A stretch of DNA of 42,716 nucleotides. It comes from Methanosarcina spelaei. GTDB taxonomy: Archaea > Halobacteriota > Methanosarcinia > Methanosarcinales > Methanosarcinaceae. The notes under the pieces were generated by a model, which saw only the letters and a list, made by a program, of their open reading frames with translations, was not told the origin of the DNA and made no database searches. The position numbers were made by a program, and so were the translations under genes. Where the stretch lies: NCBI RefSeq assembly GCF_002287235.1, contig NZ_LMVP01000157.1:1-42716 (forward strand), given 5' to 3'. Below, piece after piece: positions 14,944 through 16,433 of this stretch (position 1 is the first letter of the stretch; the number at the start of each line of letters is the position of its first letter).

Positions 14944-15123
14944 AAGCCTTTTAAAAAAAGGCTTGAGCGAAAACCACTACTAAATATAAAACGTCATGAC
15001 GACGTGATCATAAACCCTTTAAAAAAGGCTTGAGCGAAAACTCCAGTAACGTTTGGGTTTGAAAAACTTATCCCCAAACCCATAGCGTGATCAACCGGCG
15101 TAACGGTTGCGGGTAAACGGTTG
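14944..15123. repeat. Modular intergenic repeat, copy A
   Basis: This block shares four modules with 30244-30495. Module 1 is a hairpin AAGCCTTTT-N-AAAAGGCTT followed by GAGCGAAAA and occurs twice. Module 2 is CACTACTAAATATAAAACGT plus a palindromic CGTCATGACG ending GTGATCA. Module 3 contains AGTAACGTTT, TTTGAAAAACTTATCC and ATAGCGTGATCA. Module 4 is the hairpin CAACCGGCGTAACGGTTG plus GCGGGTAAACGGTTG. Order here is 1-2-1-3-4. No reading frame crosses it. It is a non-coding dispersed element of unknown function. Confidence 0.8.
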
Positions 15124-15574
15124 TAGCTCAATTTGTGGGTCAACAAGGTCAATTTATAGATGAAAAGCTGTTTTTCAATTACTGATGAGGATGAATTTAG
15201 AAAGTTTTAACTTTTCGCCCGGCCGCATCTGGACAACATGTGCCCTGAATCAAGAAGAGTATTCAAGGGGAAATTCAAACAAGATGATCTAAGTAAGTTG
15301 TTTCCATAACAAGGACAGTCAATATGATATCCTACATTCGGCAGCAAGCACATTCCAACATCTAAATATTCTTAATTGTTATTTTTTGTAGGTTAAGTTA
15401 AAAAACAGCATCTTGCGGATTATCTATCTAGCATGATTTGTCTTTTATCTCATATATTATAAATATATATTAATTATGTTATGGTTAACATTTAGTAATT
15501 TTTGATTTAAATTAAATATCAAAAGTTCTAAAAAAAACGATATCAATAGAAAAATTGAATGGATTTTTATGTCG
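15124..15574. other. Non-coding AT-rich stretch
   Basis: Between copy A of the modular repeat and the folded element I see no reading frame with coding character. A more GC-rich island at about 15215-15290 (around TTCGCCCGGCCGCATCTGG) could be debris of an old gene but translates to no recognisable protein. Confidence 0.4.
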
Positions 15575-15591
15575 ACCTGCCGAAAGCAGGT
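15575..15591. other. Small perfect hairpin before the folded element
   Basis: ACCTGC-CGAAA-GCAGGT is a perfect 6-bp stem with a five-base loop, 57 bases upstream of the larger folded element. It could be an independent RNA hairpin or part of a longer transcript. Confidence 0.5.
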
Positions 15592-15648
15592 GATATGTTA
15601 AGTTATTAGAAAGAAGACCAACAATATGATTTTAATATTGAAAAATAG

Positions 15649-15832
15649 ATTGCGTTCTCATCAAAGAACCTGGAAGTTCTGAACGGCTTTAAGAGATTTT
15701 GTTTATGTGGGAAGAGATACTGAGGTACTAGACTCACGGGTTGCGAGTTTTGGTTAATTCTCTTTCCGTTTTATCCCCTTACCTGTGGAGTAGATATTAA
15801 TGAATGGGGTGTTAAAGGGATGAGAACGCAAT
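15649..15832. ncRNA. Putative structured RNA (or folded mobile-element relic)
   Basis: The ends form a perfect 14-bp helix: ATTGCGTTCTCATC (15649-15662) and GATGAGAACGCAAT (15819-15832). Inside, AGAAC-CTGGAA-GTTCT makes a hairpin (15665-15680). AACGG and AAGAGATT (15682-15698) pair with AATTCTCTT and CCGTT (15756-15770), enclosing an ACTC/GAGT hairpin (15732-15748). CCCC (15775-15778) can pair with GGGG (15806-15809). This is a closed multi-branch fold of 184 nt with no coding frame. The strand is undecided because the helices are nearly symmetrical; a weak TATA-like TTTAATATT lies at 15631-15639 on plus. I do not recognise an RNA family. The alternative is a non-autonomous transposable element with 14-bp terminal inverted repeats, although flanking target duplications are not evident. 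Confidence 0.5.
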
Positions 15833-16433
15833 TCATATTATGCGCTTACAGTATATAATATTTTTAGCACAGAATGTTATGCAATTATCTTGATATTAAC
15901 ATATCATTATAATTTCAGTCCATCCTAACAAGTTTATACGACTGTTATAACATTATTTTATGCCTGTATAAGTGGGGCTTCCACACCTTATTTCATCATA
16001 CAAAACTGAGGTATGATTGATAAATCTATGTGAAAGAATGTTTTCCTGGATATATGTGAAAAAATCAGTTTGAAAGAAAAAATGAAGTATCTGTCTAACC
16101 TTAATTTTCAGATTTGAGGGGATAAATTTAAGGCAAAAATTAGGATGAGATTCCCTAGAGCAAGGGTTAAGGTAAGATCTGGAAATTTCTTCTGGTATTG
16201 AATTAGCTAAAAACAATTTAATTTATATCAACAGAATAATTTATATATTCCTTAGTAAAGATGAGAGAAAATAAAGAAGCTGCAGAACTAGATTTATCCT
16301 GGAATCACTTTTTGTCCTGGAATCACTTAGTGATCGGTCTCTTGTATTAATTTTACGGTCACTTAGTAGTCGCTTGATAATTACTTTTAAAATACCTTGT
16401 GGTCACGTTATAATCACACTCAGGAGCATTTGC

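Follow-up and report, generated by a model that had tools for sequence, protein, structure and literature searches.

The segment from 15649 to 15832 of the analysed sequence (referred to as the window, and comprising 42,716 nt of a Methanosarcina spelaei contig) is predicted from its sequence to be a stand-alone non-coding RNA gene on the minus strand, equipped with an archaeal promoter of its own and ended by a T-run terminator. The RNA would be ~183 nt long, with its 5' end near 15831 and its 3' end near 15649. Few archaeal small RNAs are understood so far. The present family is carried by every Methanosarcina genome examined, mostly in several copies and with one promoter type, and is therefore likely to be important to these methane producers. 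An open loop closed by an end-to-end helix is, in addition, an unusual architecture.

The predicted RNA gene and its control signals

In the window, the element lies in an intergenic stretch of 1.54 kb without long ORFs. No ORF of at least 100 aa overlaps the element in any of the 40 family copies with enough flanking sequence, and the longest small frames are unlike from copy to copy, which indicates that no coding frame is conserved. The same intergenic region contains a 24-nt direct repeat, TTAAAAAAAGGCTTGAGCGAAAAC, at 14951–14974 and 15018–15041 (spacing 67).

Assignment to the minus strand rests on the promoter, the terminator, the fold score and the pattern of wobble pairs (see below), all of which point the same way. 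The fold z-score of the window sequence is −4.75 for the minus strand and −2.20 for the plus strand. The initial annotation implied a plus-strand RNA, but for such a transcript the promoter and the U-run would fall on the wrong side.

Each of the 46 copies compiled at the outset has a TATA-like box on one side of the element only, and this side never varies; 45 of them also have a T-run after the 3' end. In the window (all features on the minus strand), the terminator-like T-run CTATTTTTC occupies 15640–15648, directly after the 3' end. Upstream of the gene are a conserved promoter-proximal block, CATAATATGA (15833–15842; consensus CATAGTATAA), an A-rich/TATA box, TAAAAATATTATATA (15852–15866), and an upstream promoter motif, ATAACATTCTGTGCTA (15866–15881; family consensus AATAAxATTAxxTGTTA). 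The consensus of 112 copies reads AATAAxATTAxxTGTTAAAAATATTATATA, followed by ~9 variable bases and CATAGTATAAxTTGCGT, and the TATA box has its final base 20 nt before TTGCG, both in this consensus and in the window. The usual spacing between TATA box and start site in archaea is well established, and it places the predicted start approximately where the closing helix begins.

This extended promoter is almost confined to the family. Of 43 matches to it in 12 genomes, 40 precede family copies, with none for a reversed-pattern control; for the upstream motif TAACATTATGTGTTA, the corresponding figure in 30 genomes is 17 of 19, with one match for the reversed control. Two full family promoters in genome G041 stand without a recognizable family RNA, namely L287 (G041:190844–190878) and L299 (G041:3518779–3518813). 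One of the two is upstream of a pilin-like reading frame, and the other precedes three tandem repeats. These promoters may be left from copies that have decayed, or may belong to further members of the regulon.

Closing helix and interior loop

The ends of the element form a perfect 14-bp inverted repeat, ATTGCGTTCTCATC (15649–15662) and GATGAGAACGCAAT (15819–15832), as the initial annotation stated. Two matches to a 13-bp repeat (together one 14-bp repeat) were seen, where a mononucleotide-shuffled intergenic region is expected to yield 0.013, and the closing helix is real, beyond chance. In the minus-strand RNA, its 5' strand is ATTGCGTTCTCATC (15819–15832), with GCGTTCTCATC nearly invariant across the family; its 3' strand is GATGAGAACGCAAT (15649–15662), in which most of the variation is A to G, turning U-A pairs into U-G.

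Over 112 distinct copies, in an alignment fitted to this helix, 97.2 % of its positions pair. Double-sided changes affect four helix pairs in five cells, and only 4–5 of 500 shuffles reach as many. Covariation is nevertheless regarded as only modest, because the helix itself was used in fitting the alignment, and the first set of 46 copies, selected by pattern, contains no double change in the closing helix. The remaining changes in the 112 copies are mostly of the U-A to U-G kind. As the same change would give an A-C mismatch if the plus strand were transcribed, this supports pairing in a minus-strand RNA.

The closing helix is the sole conserved structure of the RNA, and the only one retained in the RNAalifold consensus. 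The initial annotation described a multi-branched fold with at least three further helices. These occur only in single-sequence minimum-energy folds of the window copy, and none is found in the consensus. Across 46 copies, the mean fold z-score is −3.5 for the full element but −0.10 for the interior alone, and the best candidate for an inner hairpin is paired in at most 84 % of cells, without convincing covariation. Inner helices were accordingly rejected in favour of a single helix that encloses a conserved loop, most of it unpaired.

This interior comprises ~150 nt, is poor in G (12 %), and is conserved in sequence, with pyrimidine-rich motifs. In 5' to 3' order on the minus strand, these are CACCCC (15806–15811), CUACUCC (15787–15793; 40 of 46 copies), ACUCGCAACCCGUGAGUC (15731–15748; an optional small hairpin, without conservation in every paralogue group), GUACCUCA (15721–15728), CUCUUCCC (15709–15716) and CCGUUCAGAACUUCCAG (15670–15686; family consensus CCGUUCGGAACUUCCAG), the last showing the strongest conservation in the interior. 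Counts in the 46 copies are 46 for ACCUC, 43 for CUACUC, 38 for CUCUUCC, 34 for UUCGGAAC and 32 for AACUUCCAG. The motifs ACUCC, AUUCC, ACUUCC and UCUUCC, a set chosen post hoc, together occur 2.9 times per RNA, compared with 0.95 times in shuffled sequences. Such conserved loop motifs could serve directly as bait in a search for partners.

Distribution and inheritance of the family

By DNA similarity, two additional copies were detected in this genome, and 23 of 39 related genomes, every one of them from the same genus, also carried copies. With a covariance model built from the closing helix plus sequence, the family was detected in all 30 Methanosarcina genomes, with one to eight matches per genome and 129 in total, including one weak antisense match. 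A sister genus from the same taxonomic family gave matches in four genomes, and the 25 further genera of the order that were searched gave none. By this count M. spelaei has four copies: that in the window (contig C157), a tandem pair on C553 and a single copy on C12. When 84,980 species genomes were scanned for an exact pattern, the only hits were to records titled Methanosarcina and to Euryarchaeota metagenome-assembled genomes.

The Rfam 15 scan proposed in the initial annotation matched no family, with no match at gathering score anywhere in the window and nothing up to E=5 for 15500–15950. Searches of the literature with sequence strings and sRNA terms found no description of the family, although single members may stand unrecognized in lists of M. 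mazei sRNAs. The suggestion of an undescribed structured RNA of Methanosarcina is thus borne out as regards a genus-wide family, absent from Rfam, in which changes to the helix mainly preserve pairing; the multi-branched fold and the strand are the parts that had to be given up.

A tree of 113 copies contains several well-supported paralogue groups, which follow species. At the window locus, the neighbouring genes encode a semialdehyde dehydrogenase, a 102-aa ORF, a CobW-like protein, a radical SAM protein and a DeoC-like aldolase. Judged on gene size and order, they are kept in three other genomes (G014, G013 and G007); Pfam models confirmed the CobW-like and radical SAM genes in G007, and the other neighbours in the window only. 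The species-following groups, together with this synteny, indicate vertical inheritance and not transposition. At 16293–16328 in the window, an 18-nt unit, TTTATCCTGGAATCACTT, is present twice in tandem immediately before the radical SAM gene.

The initial annotation also offered a non-autonomous transposable element, a reading to which the perfect terminal inverted repeat and the several copies per genome would lend themselves. It is now considered extremely unlikely. The paralogue groups are old, divergent and vertically inherited, near-identical mobile copies at unrelated sites are lacking, and the window locus is syntenic between species. Each copy has a conserved promoter of the same type outside the repeats, and the repeats themselves change almost only in one strand, in the U-A to U-G manner. 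Furthermore, the plasmid collection contained no match to the element, and none of four pattern matches in IMG/VR fits the covariance model, which leaves no viral copies. That the element is a cis-acting leader or riboswitch serving an adjacent gene is very improbable as well. The CobW-like gene does lie ~0.8 kb downstream on the same strand in the window, but a terminator-like T-run directly follows the helix and the downstream gene is not constant among copies. In 25 of 40 copies, there is no same-strand ORF of at least 100 aa downstream in the fetched locus, and in the others it is 133–1150 nt away.

Several loci show further local features. G010 and G044 (L119–L130) have lineage-specific expansions of scattered, divergent copies, with eight and five matches, respectively. 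In L062 (5868–9323), from a probable M. mazei genome, the tandem family copies have as neighbours a nucleotidyltransferase/HepT-like toxin–antitoxin pair and a type I restriction gene that is truncated. In L004, a unit of ~72 nt containing CTCGGGAGGACGGGGCCCTTTTCGCTCACTTCGTTCGCTC is repeated in about three tandem copies (1801–2030).

Possible function and comparison with known RNAs

Pairing of the ends should protect both of them, and would hold the G-poor, mostly unpaired and conserved ~150 nt in a circle-like loop. The RNA may act in trans through the redundant pyrimidine-rich motifs CUACUCC, CCUCUUCC and UUCGGAACUUCCAG. These could bind a protein, with the RNA serving as a scaffold, or as a sponge dosed by several copies under one promoter type. 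Taken as a whole, the explanation as a minus-strand RNA gene, acting in trans through redundant loop motifs and with a slight preference for protein binding, is given about an even chance on the sequence evidence. A bolder form of it is proposed only tentatively, and is rather doubtful: a genus-wide, multi-gene, dose-controlled hub, in which the helix-closed, open-loop RNA would sequester or assemble a putative archaeal RNA-binding protein, as an in-principle counterpart of the CsrB sponge. Family members could be deleted in the genetically tractable species M. acetivorans and M. mazei.

The main alternative is a base-pairing sRNA, the open pyrimidine-rich loop of which would block the translation of several mRNAs by pairing with their purine-rich ribosome binding sites. 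This is a serious possibility, if short of an even one. The loop is open and G-poor, with CCUC and CUUCC motifs, and GGAAGAGGU is mildly enriched before ATG in the 30 genomes (292 occurrences versus 186 in a reversed control). The characterized trans-acting sRNAs of Methanosarcina, namely sRNA162, sRNA154 and sRNA41 of M. mazei, are reported to work through base pairing. Known sRNAs of the genus mask ribosome binding sites (PMC3510493, PMC5867862). LhrC of Listeria is likewise multicopy, each copy having three redundant CU-rich sites (PMC4132741). Against this, the complement of CUACUCC is depleted before ATG (65 versus 149), and the start regions of an M. acetivorans-like genome do not pair consistently better with the RNA than with dinucleotide-shuffled versions of it: one paralogue ranked 2/40 and another 37/40, in a comparison that covered only 72 start regions, those with strong Shine–Dalgarno sequences.

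The most conserved motif also lacks an extended complement outside the family. In the 30 genomes, the UUCGGAACUUCCAG motif has 50 exact 14-nt complements and, compared by eye, every one of these is inside a family copy, an argument against any extended target in mRNA for that motif; the search covers extended matches, seeds of 6–8 nt being below its reach. Pairing of the segment ACCUCA...CCUCUUCCC was rejected, as matches outside the family are merely scattered, and so was pairing with rRNA, for which the longest matches (10–11 nt) are the same as for shuffled sequences. These tests of rRNA, complements and start regions, with the repetition of motifs, lead to a slight preference for a protein-binding hub over mRNA pairing, and confidence in this choice is low.

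Among known RNAs, Y RNAs have an end-to-end stem and a pyrimidine-rich internal loop. The family RNA resembles them in outline, with paired 5' and 3' ends and a large internal loop, but the sequences are unrelated. A Y-RNA-like particle bound by Ro60/TROVE has a practically negligible probability, because a Pfam model found TROVE proteins in none of the 30 Methanosarcina genomes. CsrB/RsmZ RNAs share repeated short unpaired motifs and the existence of paralogues, which recalls the protein-sponge idea. They carry GGA in hairpin loops and have CsrA as a partner, whereas the family RNA has pyrimidine motifs in one open loop, and no homology is claimed.

The mRNA-pairing sRNA162 of M. mazei has three probed stem–loops (PMC3510493). 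Like the family RNA, sRNA162 and sRNA171 are intergenic, restricted to Methanosarcina and of similar length (191 nt), and comprise two homologous copies with a single-stranded target-binding region. Compared by description only, they differ in having three stem–loops and a 39-nt linker, where the family RNA is without conserved inner stem–loops. An ArsR regulator and MM2442-like genes flank them; at the M. mazei-like family copies, no ArsR was found among the neighbouring ORFs tested.

The closest analogue in logic is LhrC. LhrC1–5 are again several homologous copies of a G-poor RNA with redundant CU-rich sites and shared promoter control. LhrC differs in having stem–loops and its own terminator hairpin, and in pairing with ribosome binding sites. 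In the family RNA, for which start-site pairing is unsupported and homology with LhrC is not claimed, one end-to-end helix closes the whole molecule.
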